Part shown: positions 5,057 through 10,308 of the stretch, piece by piece
Layout of the letters: the number at the start of each line of letters is the position of its first letter
How positions within the stretch are numbered: position 1 is the stretch's first letter
Source of the DNA: Rickettsiales bacterium
Lineage (GTDB): Bacteria > Pseudomonadota > Alphaproteobacteria > Methylaequorales > Methylaequoraceae
Direction: 5' to 3'
Assembly: GCA_002691145.1 (NCBI GenBank)
Contig: NZHE01000026.1
Span: forward strand, 79,678 to 114,545
DNA: 34,868 nt
The notes under the pieces: generated by a model
The model's input: only the letters and a program-made list of their open reading frames with translations
What the model was told of the DNA's origin: nothing
Databases searched by the model: none
Translations under genes and position numbers: made by a program

Positions 5057-5341
5057 ATGTATAGAATATATAAACCTTCAAAATCTTCAATGCAATCAGG
5101 ATTTTTTAATACAAATTTCTGGGTAATAGAATCATTAGAAATAGAGAGCAAAACTATGGATTCAAGATTTTGCTGGAGAAGTTCGACTAATACTATTGAG
5201 CAAGTAAAACTAAAATTCAAAACCTTAAAAGAAGCTATATCATTTGCTGATAAACAGAAATTAGTTTACAGAATAGAAAAACCAAAAGAGTATAAAAAAG
5301 TGTTGAAAAATTACGCAGATAACTTCAAACCGAAAAGATAA
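5057..5341 (+). CDS. ETC complex I subunit, NDUFS4-type accessory protein
   Basis: 94 residues matching the ETC complex I conserved region family (NDUFS4, the 18-kDa IP subunit). Hallmarks are the opening RIYKP, SxMQSG, a Trp-containing strand WVIESLEIE, WRSSTNT followed by VKLKF and KEAISFA, and the closing YADNFKP. This accessory subunit binds the NADH-oxidising arm of complex I on the cytoplasmic face. In bacteria it is characteristic of Alphaproteobacteria and is often unlinked to the nuo operon, as here. Its TAA stop overlaps the ATG of the next gene by one base (TAATG). Confidence 0.9.
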   Translation: MYRIYKPSKSSMQSGFFNTNFWVIESLEIESKTMDSRFCWRSSTNTIEQVKLKFKTLKEAISFADKQKLVYRIEKPKEYKKVLKNYADNFKPKR

Positions 5342-6150
5342 TGAAATTTATAACAAAGTTAAAATTAATTTTAATTCTTTTTTTACCTCTACAAATTCAA
5401 TCATTTGACAAACAACTAGAATCATGTGTCAATAACAATTTTAGGAAAGAAGCTAATGTTGAAAGAGACAAATATAGGCATCCATTAGAAACACTCTCAT
5501 TTTTTTCATTAAAGAAAAATATGAATGTTTTGGAGATTTTACCCTCTAGAGGTTGGTATACAGAAATAATTTCTTCATGCTTAAAAGATTCCGGCAAACT
5601 AACTGTTGCAAGTTTTGGTGAAAATCATCCAAATAAATATTTACAAAATATTCATAATGATTTCATTGATTACTTCTCCAATAATGAGAGTAAATTTGGG
5701 AATATAGACATAATTGATTTTAAAAACAATGATGGTTTTTTAGTTACTGAACCAAATACACATGATCTAGTTCTAACTTTCAGAAATAATCATAACTGGG
5801 TTAAAGCAAATATAATTGACGATGTTTATGATGCTATTTGGAAAGTTTTAAAGACAAATGGTTTACTCGGAGTAGTACAACACAGAGCTAAAGCTGAAGA
5901 AGATTATAGTTCAAGTCATTTGAATGGGTATTTACCAGAAACATATCTTATTAAAAAGATAGAAAGTAAAGGCTTTAAACTTTTAGGAAAATCTGAAATC
6001 AATAAAAACGGTTTAGATACAAAAGATCATCCAAAAGGAGTTTGGACACTTCCACCTGTTATGAGGTTGGGTGAAGTTGATAAAGAAAAATATTTAAGAA
6101 TTGGAGAAAGTGACAGAATGACTCTAAAATTTATAAAAGTACCAAAATAA
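5341..6150 (+). CDS. Exported predicted SAM-dependent methyltransferase (COG4798-like)
   Basis: 269 residues beginning with a signal peptide (hydrophobic stretch about 7-21). The rest resembles the predicted methyltransferase family COG4798: RHPLETLSFF, a SAM-site-like LEILPSRGWYTEII in place of the usual GxGxG, TFRNNHNW, GLLGVVQHRA, DTKDHPKGVWTLPP and the closing GESDRMTLKF. An exported SAM-dependent enzyme is puzzling, because SAM is cytoplasmic, and family members are not biochemically defined as far as I know. It is translationally coupled to the complex I accessory gene. The family assignment is firm; the catalytic role is not. Confidence 0.8.
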   Translation: MKFITKLKLILILFLPLQIQSFDKQLESCVNNNFRKEANVERDKYRHPLETLSFFSLKKNMNVLEILPSRGWYTEIISSCLKDSGKLTVASFGENHPNKYLQNIHNDFIDYFSNNESKFGNIDIIDFKNNDGFLVTEPNTHDLVLTFRNNHNWVKANIIDDVYDAIWKVLKTNGLLGVVQHRAKAEEDYSSSHLNGYLPETYLIKKIESKGFKLLGKSEINKNGLDTKDHPKGVWTLPPVMRLGEVDKEKYLRIGESDRMTLKFIKVPK

Positions 6151-6169: not shown

Positions 6170-6775
6170 ATGATTCATCTTATTTTTGCAACTTCTTTAG
6201 AAGCAAAACCCTTTATCAAGTTTTATAAACTAAAAAGAAATATGAAAATACACGAGTTTGAAATTTTCATAAATCAGAAAAAGAAAATTTCCTTAACAAT
6301 TAGCGGAATAGGTAAATTGTTATCTGCATGCGCAGTTGTATTTACTTATTCACATTTTAAAAAACGAAATAGTATATGGATAAATATCGGTATAGCAGGT
6401 TTTAAAGATGCTGAATTAGGGAAATTATTTTTAATTGATAAAATAAACGATACTGATAATAACACCAGTTTTTATCCTTTTTGTCTATTTAAAACAAACA
6501 TAGAAAAAAAAGATTGCAAAACCTTTAGTGAACCAAATTTTAAATATACTAGTTCAATTCATGATATGGAACTAAGTGGTTTTTATTTGGCTAGCCTAAA
6601 ATTTTCAACTAATGAATTAATTCATTCCTTTAAAATAATATCAGATAATAAAAATGAAAAGATTGATTTTAAAAATGTTTACGAAGTAGCTACTTTAATG
6701 GAAAATAACATTACAAAGATTGATAAATTTATAGACAAATTAAGCCATATAATACAAAGTCATACTAATGGTTGA
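6170..6775 (+). CDS. Nucleoside phosphorylase/nucleosidase family protein (MTA/SAH nucleosidase-like)
   Basis: 201 residues with the order of motifs of the PNP/UDP phosphorylase family: an N-terminal beta-strand and ATSLEAKPF (E11), SGIGK (45-49), NIGIAG (72-77), DMELSGFY (E134) and IISDN (D159). E11, E134 and D159 fall where 5'-methylthioadenosine/S-adenosylhomocysteine nucleosidase has its two catalytic glutamates and the purine-contacting aspartate. It is shorter than typical nucleosidases (about 230), mainly in the middle. It overlaps the following radical SAM gene by 8 nt. Radical SAM enzymes release 5'-deoxyadenosine, which nucleosidases of this family can degrade, so product removal is a plausible but untested job. 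Confidence 0.72.
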   Translation: MIHLIFATSLEAKPFIKFYKLKRNMKIHEFEIFINQKKKISLTISGIGKLLSACAVVFTYSHFKKRNSIWINIGIAGFKDAELGKLFLIDKINDTDNNTSFYPFCLFKTNIEKKDCKTFSEPNFKYTSSIHDMELSGFYLASLKFSTNELIHSFKIISDNKNEKIDFKNVYEVATLMENNITKIDKFIDKLSHIIQSHTNG

Positions 6776-7751
6776 TACAGTTTATATAGAAAGTAATATT
6801 AAAAATGAAAAAAAGACATTAGAAATAATTTCAAAACTTGGTAATGTAAATATAGTTAATTGCGAAAAGTATACTGAAGTTTTTAATAAAAAAAGCCAGA
6901 ATTTTAGACTTCAAAAGCTAAATCCGTCACTAATAATAGCAAAAAAAAATAAAAATTTTGTTTTGAAAACACCACCAAAATTTTCAATTGGATCAAAAAA
7001 TAATTATTATTTTTCACATATGATGAATTGTATTTACGATTGTAGATATTGTTTTCTCCAAGGAATGTATAATTCAGCAAATTATTTGATCTATATAAAT
7101 TATTTTGACTTTAAAAATGAGATAGAAAAAGTGTACTTAAATTCAGATTCTAAAGATATTCATTTTTTTTCAGGTTACGATTGCGACAGTTTGGCATTTG
7201 AACCATTAACAAACTTTGCAGATTATTTTATAGACTCCTTTAATGATTTCAAAAGGTCATTGTTAGAGCTTAGAACAAAAAGTAATCAAATAAATTTTTT
7301 ATTAAAAAAAAATCCTCAAGAAAATGTTATAATTGCTTTTAGTCTAAATCCTGAAAGTGTTATTAAAAATTTAGAAAAAAAAACCCCCTCACTAAAAAAA
7401 AGATTGATTGCAATTAAAAAGTTACAGCAAAAAGGTTGGAACGTTGGTTTAAGATTTGATCCAATAATATATACAAAAGATTTTAAAATAGAATACTCTA
7501 ATTTTTTTGAAGATGTATTTAATTTTCTAAACAATAAATTTCATTCAATCACACTTGGAAGTTATAGAATGCCAAAAAGCTTTAATCATAAGATTTCAAG
7601 ACTATATCCCAAAAATAATTTATTTAAAAAAAATCTAATTGCCGATAAGAATTTTATTAAATATGATGAATGCATATCTGATGAAATAAATGAATTTTGT
7701 CAAAAAGAGATTTTGAAATATGTCTCTAAAGAAATTTTATTTTTTAACTAA
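6768..7751 (+). CDS. Spore photoproduct lyase family radical SAM protein
   Basis: 327 residues with the radical SAM cluster motif CxxxCxxC (C88, C92, C95, in NCIYDCRYCFLQGMY). Context resembling spore photoproduct lyase surrounds it: FSHMMNC before, and SGYDCDSLAFEPLT (135-148) after. The genuine spore enzyme repairs a thymine dimer with a hydrogen-donor cysteine in an EAACTSD segment. Here the aligned position seems to be Y137, with C139 two residues later. LELRTKS and GLRFDPIIY follow as further family landmarks. Non-sporulating bacteria carry this branch, often called DNA repair photolyase, without a proven substrate. It overlaps the nucleosidase-like gene by 8 nt, and its stop overlaps the converging small gene by 4 nt. 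Confidence 0.85.
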   Translation: MVDTVYIESNIKNEKKTLEIISKLGNVNIVNCEKYTEVFNKKSQNFRLQKLNPSLIIAKKNKNFVLKTPPKFSIGSKNNYYFSHMMNCIYDCRYCFLQGMYNSANYLIYINYFDFKNEIEKVYLNSDSKDIHFFSGYDCDSLAFEPLTNFADYFIDSFNDFKRSLLELRTKSNQINFLLKKNPQENVIIAFSLNPESVIKNLEKKTPSLKKRLIAIKKLQQKGWNVGLRFDPIIYTKDFKIEYSNFFEDVFNFLNNKFHSITLGSYRMPKSFNHKISRLYPKNNLFKKNLIADKNFIKYDECISDEINEFCQKEILKYVSKEILFFN

Positions 7752-8155
7752 AATTTTCTGTCTTTCATTTTTAATTGACTGCAATTTAACCAAATTTGAT
7801 TGTCATTATCAGATTCCATTTTTTTAAACTTTAAAGCAAGGTTTCCGGAAAATCTCCCCAAGATTCCACTTGCATGCCCTGAAGAATCTGAGTACAGATT
7901 TTCTATATCACTAGCAAACCACTTAATATTTGAATCAGTGACCATCATCTCATCAGCTTCGAACTTCAAACTTCCTATTTCAATCTTATTACTATTTGAT
8001 GATAAACTAATAATTAGATCGTTAAAATCTTGGCTTTTAGGTTTATCAGCTCGTGAAACACATACTAATTTTAGTTCTACAGATAGAGCTAAATGTGGAG
8101 CACATAATAAAAAAAGCAGTAAATAAAAGATTGTTTTATTAATAAAAGAAATCAT
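7748..8155 (-). CDS. Small exported protein of unknown function
   Basis: 135 residues with a clear signal peptide (hydrophobic FYLLLFLLCAPHLALS, about 9-24), probably cleaved near ALS-VE. The mature part is short and polar, has two cysteines (C32 and C124) that could form a disulfide, and has no motif I recognise. It converges with the radical SAM gene, overlapping its end by 4 nt. A periplasmic location is likely. A plus-strand open frame across the same bases lacks a family signature or signal peptide and is taken as a shadow. Function unknown. Confidence 0.6.
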   Translation of the reverse strand: MISFINKTIFYLLLFLLCAPHLALSVELKLVCVSRADKPKSQDFNDLIISLSSNSNKIEIGSLKFEADEMMVTDSNIKWFASDIENLYSDSSGHASGILGRFSGNLALKFKKMESDNDNQIWLNCSQLKMKDRKF

Positions 8156-8257: not shown

Positions 8258-8986
8258 ATGTGGAATACAAAACTTTACATTAAAAATAATTTAGATTTTT
8301 TTGAAATAAAAAAATCTAAACTTGAATTATTTAAAGAATGTAAAAAATGCTTTTACTTGCATTTAGTTAAAGGGATAAAAAGACCTTACGGACCTCCATT
8401 AGCTATCAACAATATCTTGGGTAAATTAATTAAAGAAGAAATTAATAGCTACAGAGAAAAAGAAATTTGTCATCCACTAATGAAAGACATAGACTGTAAT
8501 ATTATTCCAGCAAAACATAAGTTTTTAAAAGATTGGCAAAATAGTTTTTCAGGCTTATATTTTAAACACAATGAGACAAAACTAATGGTTAGAACAACAA
8601 TTAGTGATCTTTGGTATAATGTTAAAACTAAGGAATATGTCCCAGTTGATTACAAGTTTACAGCAAAAAATCAAGAGCTTAGCTTACATAATATTTATCC
8701 TGGGTATTGGAGACAACTATCTTTAATTAAGCTTCTTTTAGAAAAAATTGGTATTAAAATTTCTAGAGAAGGATACATTGTTTACTCGAATGTAGATCAT
8801 TCAAAAAAAGTTTTCAATTCAAGCCTAAATTTCAAATCAAGTGTTTTCTCAAATACCTTACAAAGCATAGATCTTGAAAGTAATTTACAGCAAATATTCA
8901 ATATTTTACAAAATGACAAAATACCTAGTCATAGTAAAAGTTGCAAATATTGCAGTTTTGTACAATATTCAAATGAAGTAAAATAA
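8258..8986 (+). CDS. PD-(D/E)XK nuclease, Cas4/Dna2-like, with possible Fe-S cysteines
   Basis: 242 residues. The nuclease core reads SDLWYN (D117) and then PVDYKFTAK (D131, K133), the D...DxK pattern of PD-(D/E)XK enzymes, followed by a YWRQLSLIKLLL helix that matches the QxxxY/QL motif region of RecB-like nucleases. Cysteines lie at both ends (C28 and C31 in KECKKC; C229 and C232 in CKYC), a layout reminiscent of the iron-sulfur staple of Cas4, AddB and Dna2. No CRISPR array or cas1 is present, so Cas4 itself is unlikely. The DNA ligase gene starts 2 nt after its stop. DNA end processing before ligation is a reasonable inference. Confidence 0.75.
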   Translation: MWNTKLYIKNNLDFFEIKKSKLELFKECKKCFYLHLVKGIKRPYGPPLAINNILGKLIKEEINSYREKEICHPLMKDIDCNIIPAKHKFLKDWQNSFSGLYFKHNETKLMVRTTISDLWYNVKTKEYVPVDYKFTAKNQELSLHNIYPGYWRQLSLIKLLLEKIGIKISREGYIVYSNVDHSKKVFNSSLNFKSSVFSNTLQSIDLESNLQQIFNILQNDKIPSHSKSCKYCSFVQYSNEVK

Positions 8987-8988
8987 AA

Positions 8989-10308
8989 ATGAAAAACTAT
9001 AAAATAATAAAAGAATTAGAGTCCAATAATTCAAGACTCTTTAAGGAAGAAGTAATTCTTCGAGAAATGAAAAATAATAATCAAAAATTATTTGAAGCTT
9101 TTTTTTATGCTTGCGACAAGTTACTAACTTTTGGTGTAAAACAAGTGCCAATATCAAAAAAAAGTGGTGAGGGTTTGAATTGGGAGATTTTTAAAGATCT
9201 TTTAAATAAGTTAAATAGAAGAATAATTACGGGTAATAAAGCAAAAGAAGAAATTAAAATTGCTATGCAAAAATGTTCTGAGTCAGAATGGAATTACTTT
9301 TATAGAAGAATCTTAATAAAAGACTTACGATGTGGTTTGTCTGAGAAAACTATTAATAATGTTGCAAAAAAGAATAATTTTCCTGAATTTTCAATTCCTG
9401 TATTTAGTTGCCAGCTAGCACAAGATTCTGAACATCACAAAAAAAAACTAAATGGAGAGAAAATTATTGAAGTTAAACTTGACGGTGTACGAGTAATTTC
9501 AATTTTACACTGTGATGGAAAAGTTGACATGTTCAGCAGAAACGGAAAAGAATTATTAAATTTCGAAAAAGTAAAAAAACAACTAGCCGATTCAATAAGT
9601 CGTCAAAAAATTGCAACTTCAATTGTCTTAGATGGTGAAATTGTAAGTAAAAATTTTCAAGAACTGATGAAACAAATTTACAGAAAGGATAATCTACAAA
9701 ATAATGATGCAAATTTATATCTATTTGATTTTCTTACATTTGACGAATTTAAAAAAGGCAAAAGCATAGAAAATCAAAAAGAACGTATTAAACTTTTAAA
9801 AAAATGGTTTAATTCTAGAAAAGAATTATTAGATAATGTTAAATTATTAAACTCTGAAATTATAGATTTGTCTACTTCAGAGGGAAATAAAAGGTTTGTG
9901 AGCATTAATAAATCAGCTGTAATAGATGGATTTGAGGGAATAATGATTAAAGATCCTAACGCAATTTATGAATCAAAAAGAAGCTTTCATTGGTTGAAGC
10001 TTAAACCTGTAATAGAGATTTCTCTTAAGGTAACTTCTGTTGATGAGGGGACAGGTAGAAACAAAAATAAATTAGGTGCAGTAACAGCAGAAGGTACTGA
10101 AGAGAACAAAAGGTTTAAAATTAGTGTTGGTTCTGGTTTTTCAGATAATCAAAGAATTTCATTTTGGAAAGAAAAAGATAATCTTATAGGACAAATTATT
10201 GAAATAAAGGCAGATGCAATTACTAAAAGCCAGGATGGGGAATTTTGGAGCCTAAGGTTTCCAAGATTTAAAACTTTTAGGGGGTATGAGATCGATGAAA
10301 AAATGTAA
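8989..10308 (+). CDS. ATP-dependent DNA ligase, phage T4 gp30-like
   Basis: 439 residues. The adenylation lysine is K163 in EVKLDGVR (motif I), followed by SRNG, LDGEIVS (motif III, 214-220), DGFEGIMIKD (motif IV, 313-322) and WLKLKP (motif V). A C-terminal OB fold ends in SLRFPRFKTFRG. The N-terminal part, with RRIITGNKAKEEI and RRILIKDLRCGLSEKTINNV, resembles the DNA-binding region of T4 ligase (TRKLTGNAAIEEL, RRVMMRDLEVGAS) as I recall it. It therefore differs from the LigD and LigC ligases usual in bacteria. It seals nicks using ATP. It is almost certainly co-transcribed with the PD-(D/E)XK nuclease 2 nt upstream. Chromosomal housekeeping ligation is normally done by NAD-dependent LigA, so this is an accessory ligase. 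Confidence 0.9.
   Translation: MKNYKIIKELESNNSRLFKEEVILREMKNNNQKLFEAFFYACDKLLTFGVKQVPISKKSGEGLNWEIFKDLLNKLNRRIITGNKAKEEIKIAMQKCSESEWNYFYRRILIKDLRCGLSEKTINNVAKKNNFPEFSIPVFSCQLAQDSEHHKKKLNGEKIIEVKLDGVRVISILHCDGKVDMFSRNGKELLNFEKVKKQLADSISRQKIATSIVLDGEIVSKNFQELMKQIYRKDNLQNNDANLYLFDFLTFDEFKKGKSIENQKERIKLLKKWFNSRKELLDNVKLLNSEIIDLSTSEGNKRFVSINKSAVIDGFEGIMIKDPNAIYESKRSFHWLKLKPVIEISLKVTSVDEGTGRNKNKLGAVTAEGTEENKRFKISVGSGFSDNQRISFWKEKDNLIGQIIEIKADAITKSQDGEFWSLRFPRFKTFRGYEIDEKM

Follow-up and report, generated by a model that had tools for sequence, protein, structure and literature searches.

The window, a stretch of 34,868 nt from contig NZHE01000026.1 of a Rickettsiales bacterium (assembly GCA_002691145.1), carries on its plus strand two overlapping genes, for a nucleosidase-like protein and for a radical SAM protein of the spore photoproduct lyase (SPL) type. 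Both open reading frames lie exactly where an earlier note on this DNA had placed them, and they are listed with their diagnostic residues in Table 1.

Table 1. Positions (window numbering) of the two genes, their overlap and their diagnostic residues.
Feature	Position	Strand	Basis
MTAN-fold nucleosidase, 201 aa	6170..6775	+	ORF, weak nucleosidase HMM matches, predicted structure
E11 codon	6200..6202	+	kept in 94/94 sequences reaching the column
E134 codon, ME motif	6569..6571	+	kept in 95/96 sequences, the remaining one being X
D159 codon, SD motif	6644..6646	+	kept in 96/96 sequences
Nucleosidase stop/radical SAM start overlap, 8 nt, ATGGTTGA	6768..6775	+	ORF coordinates
SPL-type radical SAM protein, 327 aa	6768..7751	+	PF20903, TIGR04070, SPL fold
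CX3CX2C cluster motif C88, C92, C95	7029..7052	+	present in 153/153 SPL-type sequences
F96 codon, site of SPL Y98 (Geobacillus)/Y99 (B. subtilis)	7053..7055	+	two alignments
Y137 codon, site of SPL hydrogen donor C140 (Geobacillus)/C141 (B. subtilis)	7176..7178	+	two alignments

The first protein is remote from any named nucleosidase family at the sequence level. A Pfam search returned zero matches at E<=0.1, and every NCBIfam cut-off was missed: the top match, 'nucleosidase' PRK05634 (E 1.3e-4), fell far under its cut-off, as did the futalosine hydrolase model TIGR03664 (E 0.0018, 18 bits against 124.7) and the MTAN (MTA/SAH nucleosidase) model PRK05584 (E 0.0029, 17.1 bits against 169), on which a gammaproteobacterial relative reaches 44.5 bits. 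The predicted structure (pLDDT 92.8) is far more telling. Its match to the MTAN entry 2h8g has a Z score of 22.5 (rmsd 2.5, 190 residues aligned), and among the 50 structural matches listed all are entries of MTAN (MtnN/Pfs) or futalosine hydrolase (MqnB), those listed spanning Z 20-22.5 at 14-20% identity. The Glu/Glu/Asp triad of these enzymes, which the earlier note had located at E11, E134 and D159, is near-invariant in an alignment of 96 distinct sequences that includes the window protein (profile match E<=1e-15, length >=170 aa, so that degenerate copies fall outside the set). We take E11 to be the catalytic acid/base position of MTAN, E134 the contact to the ribose 2'-OH and D159 the contact to purine N7. 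Judged from the aligned sequences this placement is no chance occurrence, and model and alignment together show the window protein to be an MTAN-fold nucleosidase with its triad in place, as had been proposed. Most relatives differ from MTAN and MqnB in an extra C-terminal part of about 65 aa; the window protein is a short form that lacks this extension, as is its counterpart in locus L024 from another family of the same class. Matches of the nucleosidase C-terminus to centrin were taken as chance resemblance of a charged helical stretch.

The second protein clears the Pfam SPL model (PF20903; 75.6 bits, gathering score 27) and carries the CX3CX2C motif, and its structural model superimposes on a solved SPL with a Z score of 28.1 (rmsd 3.1, 309 residues aligned), the next radical SAM enzyme reaching 13.5. 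Its assignment to the SPL family thus stands. In contrast, it remains well below the NCBIfam equivalog cut-offs (85 of 400 bits for TIGR04070, that is SplB, and 48.3 of 437.55 bits for TIGR03886), and it departs from SPL at two key residues. At the hydrogen-donor cysteine it has Tyr137, on which both alignments concur and whose position is fixed by the C140S mutant entry 4fhg. Across 153 SPL-type sequences this site is Tyr in 132, Gln in 9, Glu in 6, Cys in 5 and His in 1; the five cysteines all belong to IMG/VR sequences, and the donor cysteine was missing in all module members aligned. Phe96 stands at the site of SPL Y98 (Phe 133, Tyr 11, Ser 8, Thr 1), the 11 holders of Tyr including 4 relatives from the window's own family. 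An aspartate after the donor position is conserved as in SPL. In IMG/VR the radical SAM protein finds distant matches, at 24-32% identity. We also considered an auxiliary cluster formed by C32, C139, C311 and C327, a set common in gammaproteobacteria, and rejected it, positions 139 and 311 being variable and the window protein having Asn at 327.

According to PMC3742179, Y98 (Geobacillus) or Y99 (B. subtilis) of SPL is implicated in SAM regeneration, and C141A or Y99F enzymes form 5'-deoxyadenosine stoichiometrically with product, with slow turnover in vitro remaining in either single mutant (Table 1 of that paper). Replacement of the Cys-Tyr relay, as read from the alignments, suggests that one SAM would be spent per turnover, a cost with which a nucleosidase partner fits.

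The same residues bear on whether the pair serves nucleic-acid repair or modification, in which case bases in DNA or RNA would be the target of the SPL-type protein and the nucleosidase would salvage a nucleoside or trim a modified base. The SPL fold itself (Z 28.1) speaks for this, as do two repair-like neighbours downstream in the window, one weakly resembling PD-(D/E)XK/Cas4 proteins and the other an ATP-dependent DNA ligase, which accompany the pair in its own family (an ORF of 240-253 aa occupies the place of the former in 12 of the 12 plus-strand loci listed). Against it, the donor cysteine is missing in all aligned module members and the window protein has another residue in place of Y98; an opposite-strand gene stands between the pair and the ligase genes; and the partners that recur in other lineages are GT2 glycosyltransferases and reductases. 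Since SPL single mutants with some turnover in vitro are on record (PMC3742179), the residue changes disfavour repair rather than exclude it. We regard a repair role as improbable, and the suggestion that the nucleosidase acts on a nucleoside released by repair, raised in the earlier note, is not upheld, the donor cysteine being absent from all aligned module members and the recurring companions in other lineages being a GT2 and a carbonyl reductase instead of repair genes.

The 8-nt overlap of the two genes suggests coupled translation. It has the same length in locus L005 and in the gammaproteobacterial loci L121, L124 and L126, and is shorter, 4 nt, in 17 of the 23 loci from related genomes. 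Among 60 related genomes, the window's own included, the nucleosidase gene lies directly upstream of the radical SAM gene in all 23 holders, and both genes are present in 49 of the 50 radical SAM-holding genomes searched, which include Methylococcales where the pair is apart. Inside the window's own family (f1, 32 genomes) the entire neighbourhood is conserved, so linkage there proves little on its own. In three genomes of the same class (G245, G256 and G285) the SPL-like matches are more distant and a nucleosidase match is absent.

To see beyond this family we used a fixed sample of 275 gammaproteobacterial genomes, with thresholds of E<=1e-3 for SPL-like proteins, E<=1e-30 for the nucleosidase and E<=1e-90 for the GT2. 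An SPL-like protein was found in 49 genomes. The nucleosidase occurred in 45 of these and in 0 of the 226 SPL-negative genomes, the GT2 likewise in 45/49 versus 0/226, and all three together in 41 genomes (Fisher p about 2e-47 for SPL with either partner, uncorrected for shared ancestry in genomes that are not phylogenetically independent). The thresholds fall in natural gaps. For the nucleosidase the gap runs from 2e-32 to 5e-7, and weaker matches, found in 7 SPL-negative genomes and left out of the orthologue count, were taken for ordinary MTAN-like proteins; for the GT2 it runs from 2.5e-95 to 1.4e-47, and matches weaker than 1e-90 were not counted as orthologues. Four genomes, all kept as misses in the 45/49, account for the nucleosidase exceptions. 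In G703 a linked nucleosidase exists but is divergent and escaped the search; in G533 and G652 the GT2 carries a fused nucleosidase-like domain that scores under the gathering threshold of PNP_UDP_1; and G512 has a degenerate protein in the nucleosidase slot. This last protein (locus L276) and the one in L302 lack the ME and SD motifs, which implies that nucleosidase chemistry can be lost locally. The GT2 is missing from 4 SPL-positive genomes.

In 13 of the 45 gammaproteobacterial pairs nucleosidase and radical SAM genes are not adjacent (in 2 they share a contig but lie far apart, and in 11 they are on different contigs, with a possible assembly break in at least one case, G606). Such pairs still co-occur, so the association is not mere hitch-hiking. 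These observations weigh directly on the simplest explanation, that shared ancestry and old gene order have kept the genes together with no joint function. Conservation of the whole neighbourhood inside f1 is what that explanation would lead one to expect; elsewhere the pair adjoins in different neighbourhoods, co-occurs unlinked, is regrouped and is fused in two ways. It is refuted in the main by the fusions and by unlinked genes that nevertheless co-occur, and we consider it very improbable indeed. The conserved linkage anticipated in the earlier note is therefore borne out by the 23/23 related loci, the gammaproteobacterial counts and a fusion of the two proteins in Fusobacterium.

The neighbours show what else may belong to the module. 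The gene order GT2-nucleosidase-SPL is found in gammaproteobacteria and, in the window's own class, in L024, and GT2-nucleosidase-SDR is the order in L258, L267 and L269, whose genomes have the radical SAM gene elsewhere. Of 90 clustered SPL-type genes, 63, mostly in Methylococcales, have an SDR gene directly downstream; these 63 SDRs form one tight group (255.8-384.5 bits on their profile, other cluster SDRs 67-110). An apparent single SDR cluster beside the GT2 in many gammaproteobacterial loci proved to be a mixture of three SDR groups, of which only the DEI-L-P-tail group belongs to the module. In Fusobacterium vincentii the nucleosidase::SPL fusion is followed by an SDR, in L303 nucleosidase, SPL and SDR genes stand in a row, and in the two gammaproteobacteria G533 and G652 an aldo/keto reductase gene comes after the SPL-like one. 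These data show that in many genomes the module includes a GT2 orthologue and a carbonyl reductase. Trees of the partners (52 pairs chosen, 47 included, 5 having one partner missing from the non-redundant set) reveal two clearly different SPL-type proteins in the radical SAM slot, with nucleosidases of one family and the GT2 constant beside them; a third kind, by score, occurs in G533 and G652. Overall, parts of the module were seen in Gammaproteobacteria, the window's own class, one Omnitrophica genome and one Fusobacterium.

In f1 itself the picture is more austere. An orthologue-level GT2 is absent from its 32 genomes (best match 3e-27, versus 1e-134 in G053), and an SDR search at E<=1e-45, a strict threshold applied without a positive control, gave 0 of the 60 related genomes. 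The reading of the module as a pathway consequently rests, for the window genome, on the two core genes.

Some neighbours would also suit salvage or catabolism, in which an adenosine-type metabolite is degraded by the nucleosidase first and an SDR next, the radical SAM enzyme acting on the resulting sugar. L258, L267 and L269 place SDR and nucleosidase side by side with no radical SAM gene; of the 17 loci in which the nucleosidase is linked, 7 have a phosphoribosyltransferase gene (Pfam Pribosyltran, adenine type by eye) 3-4 kb upstream; and in 9 of 90 loci the radical SAM gene is followed by a sodium:solute symporter, which could import a substrate. The GT2, however, points to assembly and not breakdown, and no sugar kinase was seen among the annotated recurring neighbours, which leaves salvage quite improbable. 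A phosphatase-like protein precedes the nucleosidase in 9 loci.

A more serious contender is the clean-up role that the earlier note had proposed, whereby the nucleosidase destroys the radical SAM by-product 5'-deoxyadenosine and so relieves product inhibition, the other genes acting on the real product. According to PMC8102628, 5'-deoxyadenosine inhibits radical SAM enzymes, and MtnN or MtnP cleaves it. With the SAM-regenerating relay replaced the compound would accumulate, and both the tight linkage and the nucleosidase::radical SAM fusion fit channelling. On the other hand, the window genome also encodes a DeoD-type phosphorylase and an MTA phosphorylase (above cut-off), the latter being of the kind that clears 5'-deoxyadenosine, and strong matches to the nucleosidase were found in none of the 226 SPL-negative gammaproteobacterial genomes, even though radical SAM enzymes as a whole are widespread. 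A nucleosidase::GT2 fusion is hard to square with disposal, which leaves the GT2 co-occurrence and the reductase unexplained. What survives of the original proposal is a specific functional link with the radical SAM enzyme; pure clean-up is doubtful in view of the phosphorylases, GT2, reductase and fusion. We rate it as unlikely, though the least so of the alternatives, and as less likely than the pathway reading.

To that reading, in which the nucleosidase and the SPL-type protein are the core of a radical SAM pathway not yet described, as opposed to a DNA-repair unit, we give an even chance. In such a pathway the SPL-type enzyme, unable to regenerate SAM, would cleave it and either transfer the 5'-deoxyadenosyl group to an acceptor, as with HpnH, MqnE and ArsS, or release 5'-deoxyadenosine. 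The nucleosidase would then cut the N-glycosidic bond, expelling adenine and unmasking carbon 1 of the ribose, whereupon an SDR or aldo/keto reductase, where present, might reduce the exposed aldehyde and a GT2, where present, glycosylate the reduced product. Only the radical SAM and nucleosidase steps are visible in the window's lineage, where later steps may be missing or performed by other enzymes. More speculatively, and in our estimation somewhat short of an even chance, the SPL-type module proteins are no repair enzymes and instead serve adenosyl transfer or another product-forming reaction, their fold having been recruited two to three times, each time without the donor cysteine, into one conserved nucleosidase/carbonyl reductase/glycosyltransferase pathway. 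The module differs from SPL proper in its nucleosidase partner and, in many genomes other than the window's, in its GT2 and reductase, and from MTAN and MqnB in that strong matches to its nucleosidase occur, in the gammaproteobacterial sample, only beside SPL-type proteins.

Similarity commonly leads to such proteins being annotated as DNA photolyase or spore photoproduct lyase, and these repair names would mislead should the module be a biosynthetic pathway. In that case the SPL fold would have a second chemistry and a new metabolite (a lipid, cofactor or glycoside) would await in methanotrophs, other gammaproteobacteria and a Fusobacterium; the fusions and residue swaps make the module directly testable. 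No publication on the nucleosidase/SPL-type/GT2/reductase set was found in the open-access literature, PMC2628731 and PMC2763108 concerning, in the parts consulted, other subjects than this gene set.

Three described systems offer parallels. In the futalosine route to menaquinone, MqnE adds an adenosyl group by radical SAM chemistry and a nucleosidase, MqnB, follows. The nucleosidase fold is the same, and both MqnE and futalosine hydrolase are among our structural matches, but MqnE scores only Z 11.5 against the radical SAM model, far below SPL, and to our knowledge reductase and GT2 partners are no part of that route. ArsS, a radical SAM enzyme of the arsenosugar pathway, transfers an adenosyl group (PMC12159101), much as proposed here, and the GT2 partner weakly matches TIGR04283. 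The gammaproteobacterial GT2 nevertheless lies far under the cut-off of that model (71.1 versus 182 bits), for which reason the arsenosugar pathway was rejected; the NCBIfam matches of the window radical SAM protein at E<=0.1 include no ArsS model. The proposed sequence of reactions has a precedent in the hopanoid side chain, for which PMC12583986 gives the order HpnH, HpnG, an unidentified enzyme leading to BHT, and HpnI, that is, radical SAM adenosylation, adenine removal, a polyol and its glycosylation. The radical SAM protein of the module is of a different branch, with the SPL fold. A squalene-hopene cyclase is encoded in 9 of the 49 SPL-positive and 1 of 25 hand-picked SPL-negative gammaproteobacterial genomes, and in 4 of 6 genomes of the window's own class. 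Hopene was rejected as a general acceptor on account of the few SPL-positive gammaproteobacteria with a cyclase, even though the window genome has one; its HpnG homologue is a separate gene from the module nucleosidase.

The nucleosidase gene and the radical SAM gene behind it lie on the plus strand with 8 nt in common, and both open reading frames are present with the overlap that an earlier note had described. Against nucleosidase family models the first product gives weak matches, and no Pfam family is returned for it at E ≤ 0.1. Its predicted structure (pLDDT 92.8) matches Arabidopsis MTA/SAH nucleosidase (MTAN) at Z 22.5 in a structure search in which all 50 of the matches shown were MTANs or futalosine hydrolases, and by the fold of this model the protein is an MTAN. 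The MTAN triad that the same note had recognized (E11, E134 and D159) proved essentially invariant across 96 distinct nucleosidase sequences. Its partner is a spore photoproduct lyase (SPL)-type radical SAM protein by Pfam, PDB sequence search and fold (Z 28.1 to SPL versus 13.5 to RlmN); the model has a pLDDT of 82.6 and is weak over residues 41-51 and 89-103, the latter taking in part of the radical SAM cluster motif.

Features of the window and of other loci discussed in the text
Feature	Location	Strand	Remarks
269-aa protein	window 5341-6150	+	no family match above cut-off
Nucleosidase	window 6170-6775	+	201 aa
SPL-type radical SAM protein	window 6768-7751	+	327 aa
135-aa ORF	window 7748-8155	-	overlaps radical SAM stop by 4 nt; no Pfam/NCBIfam match
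Putative nuclease and ATP-dependent DNA ligase	window 8258-10308	+	242 aa directly before 439 aa
Degenerate proteins in nucleosidase slot	L276:5396-6058; L302:4505-4987		without ME and SD motifs
Symporter-bearing gammaproteobacterial loci	L054, L059, L060, L090, L104, L110, L121, L123, L124

As described in parts of PMC3742179, SPL relays through a donor Cys (C141 in B. subtilis, C140 in Geobacillus) and a Tyr (Y99 and Y98, respectively), and with C141A or Y99F 5'-deoxyadenosine (5'-dA) is formed in an amount equal to that of the product, slow turnover remaining in vitro. In our alignments these positions are instead Tyr137 and Phe96 in the window protein, which lacks the donor that marks an SPL despite its SPL fold. 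Counted over 153 SPL-type sequences, the residue at the donor place is Tyr in 132, Gln in 9, Glu in 6, His in 1 and Cys in 5, these last all from IMG/VR. Judged from sequence, replacement of the donor and the Tyr disfavours DNA repair as the role of the SPL-type protein, and we favour the pair as the core of a radical SAM pathway. Any radical SAM enzyme unable to recycle SAM has to spend its 5'-deoxyadenosyl group; the SPL-type enzyme would cleave SAM and spend this group, every step past SAM cleavage being one that we infer. Hopene as a general acceptor was ruled out by a survey of squalene-hopene cyclase. Gammaproteobacterial radical SAM proteins commonly have extra cysteines (C32, C139, C311 and C327 in window numbering), a set incompletely kept in the window's group that is a possible second metal site in the gammaproteobacterial proteins.

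The linkage that the earlier note proposed to check is conserved. Among 60 related whole genomes, the window's own included (genomes in our searches were often incomplete), 23 have the radical SAM gene and 24 the nucleosidase; in the additional genome, G020, the latter lies 21 bases off a contig end. All 23 loci have the nucleosidase gene immediately upstream, overlapping by 4 nt in 17, 8 nt in two and 1 nt in two, with a gap of 1-2 nt instead in the remaining two. Most relatives have a nucleosidase of ~260 aa with an additional C-terminal part, which is missing from that of the window and of L024, a locus from another family of the class. Across 386 genomes of the window's class (presumably Alphaproteobacteria; completeness ≥85%), full-length strong matches to both proteins occur in six (its own, G000, plus G005, G006, G007, G019 and G060); G014 has a nucleosidase fragment at a contig end, G117 and G215 have weak nucleosidase matches, and G245, G256 and G285 have more distant SPL-like matches with no match in the nucleosidase search.

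Outside the class, named genomes were scanned with an alignment of the radical SAM protein, and at least 581 encoding stretches were found. The best 80 come mainly from Methylococcales, the others being from further gammaproteobacteria and a single Omnitrophica; 17 of these 80 have the nucleosidase immediately upstream. Whole-genome searches of 50 genomes from the best 80 recovered it in 49; in Methylococcales it lies away from the radical SAM gene. In a fixed sample of 275 gammaproteobacterial genomes, 49 have an SPL-like match at E ≤ 1e-3 (37 at E ≤ 1e-100 and 12 weaker, one of the latter cut by a contig end). The co-occurrence that the earlier note proposed to survey is borne out here: the nucleosidase (E ≤ 1e-30) is found in 45 of these 49 genomes versus 0 of the 226 others, seven of which have weak matches, in a comparison uncorrected for phylogeny. 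Nucleosidase and SPL-like genes are neighbours in 32 of these 45 genomes, sharing a strand in 31.

Clustering of neighbour genes showed that a GT2 glycosyltransferase and a carbonyl reductase (SDR) recur near the pair in differing surroundings. This GT2 represents a single orthologous family, its sequences being 48-59% identical to the first of 15 compared. At E ≤ 1e-90, with a gap in the match list between 2.5e-95 and 1.4e-47, it occurs in 45 of the 275 genomes, all within the 49; it adjoins the nucleosidase in 33 of 41 genomes having both, each time on the same strand. Of 90 clustered SPL-type genes (mostly Methylococcales), 63 have the SDR as the next gene downstream, and all 63 SDRs form one group (255.8-384.5 bits versus 67-110 for the rest of the cluster). 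A sodium:solute symporter takes this place in 9 of the 90, and a phosphatase-like protein is upstream of the nucleosidase in nine loci, in most of the nine symporter loci between GT2 and nucleosidase; both are possibly further parts of the module.

The module is also regrouped. Gammaproteobacterial loci and L024 have the order GT2-nucleosidase-SPL, and a second group has GT2-nucleosidase-SDR with a distant SPL-type gene. In quick trees (SH-aLRT support only, two long nucleosidase branches flagged), SPL-type proteins of the second group form a very long separate branch and its nucleosidases fall among those of the first, indicating that the radical SAM slot had been refilled. Two genomes (G533 and G652) encode fusions of 493 and 494 aa in which GT2 (1.3e-32 and 5.3e-35) follows a different nucleosidase-like domain (PNP_UDP_1, below gathering at E 7e-5 and 1.3e-4). 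Behind the SPL-type gene of these two genomes lies an aldo/keto reductase in place of the SDR. In a Fusobacterium vincentii record one 623-aa frame joins nucleosidase (1-271) and SPL-type domain (300-622), an SDR following; a 2.1 Mb record of this species (L301, NZ_CP084075.1) is filed as a plasmid yet is chromosome-sized, probably a mislabelling. A phage-labelled faecal contig carries nucleosidase, SPL and SDR genes in succession, the last two overlapping by 8 nt and the first two abutting or overlapping by choice of start codon.

The main rival, in which the nucleosidase is a dedicated 5'-dA clean-up enzyme for its partner, draws on the inhibition of radical SAM enzymes by 5'-dA and its cleavage by MtnN or MtnP, as stated in sections of PMC8102628. 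However, a special scavenger looks redundant given that the same genome encodes an MTA phosphorylase that scores above cut-off, as well as a DeoD-type phosphorylase (19-kb contig) and an HpnG homologue (132 bits versus a cut-off of 187), and scavenging leaves the GT2 and reductase unexplained; we consider it less likely than the pathway. The HpnG homologue lies beside a squalene-hopene cyclase above cut-off (G000:C8:196750-199090), and the organism probably makes hopanoids.

In the window's own family (f1) the pair stands without these companions, with no orthologue-level GT2 and no SDR at E ≤ 1e-45, a strict threshold without positive control; genes for a putative nuclease and a DNA ligase are located nearby. 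The former gives weak PD-(D/E)XK and Cas4 matches under cut-off, a frame of 240-253 aa occupies its place in 12/12 plus-strand f1 loci listed, and with the ligase it may form a separate repair pair. In many f1 relatives a frame related to the 269-aa protein stops only a few bases from where the nucleosidase gene begins, and this protein may be a third operon gene standing in for GT2. Among the degenerate proteins in the nucleosidase slot, that of L276 clearly retains the C-terminal part, which hints, from sequence comparison, at a function of the extension's own, perhaps binding of the radical SAM partner.
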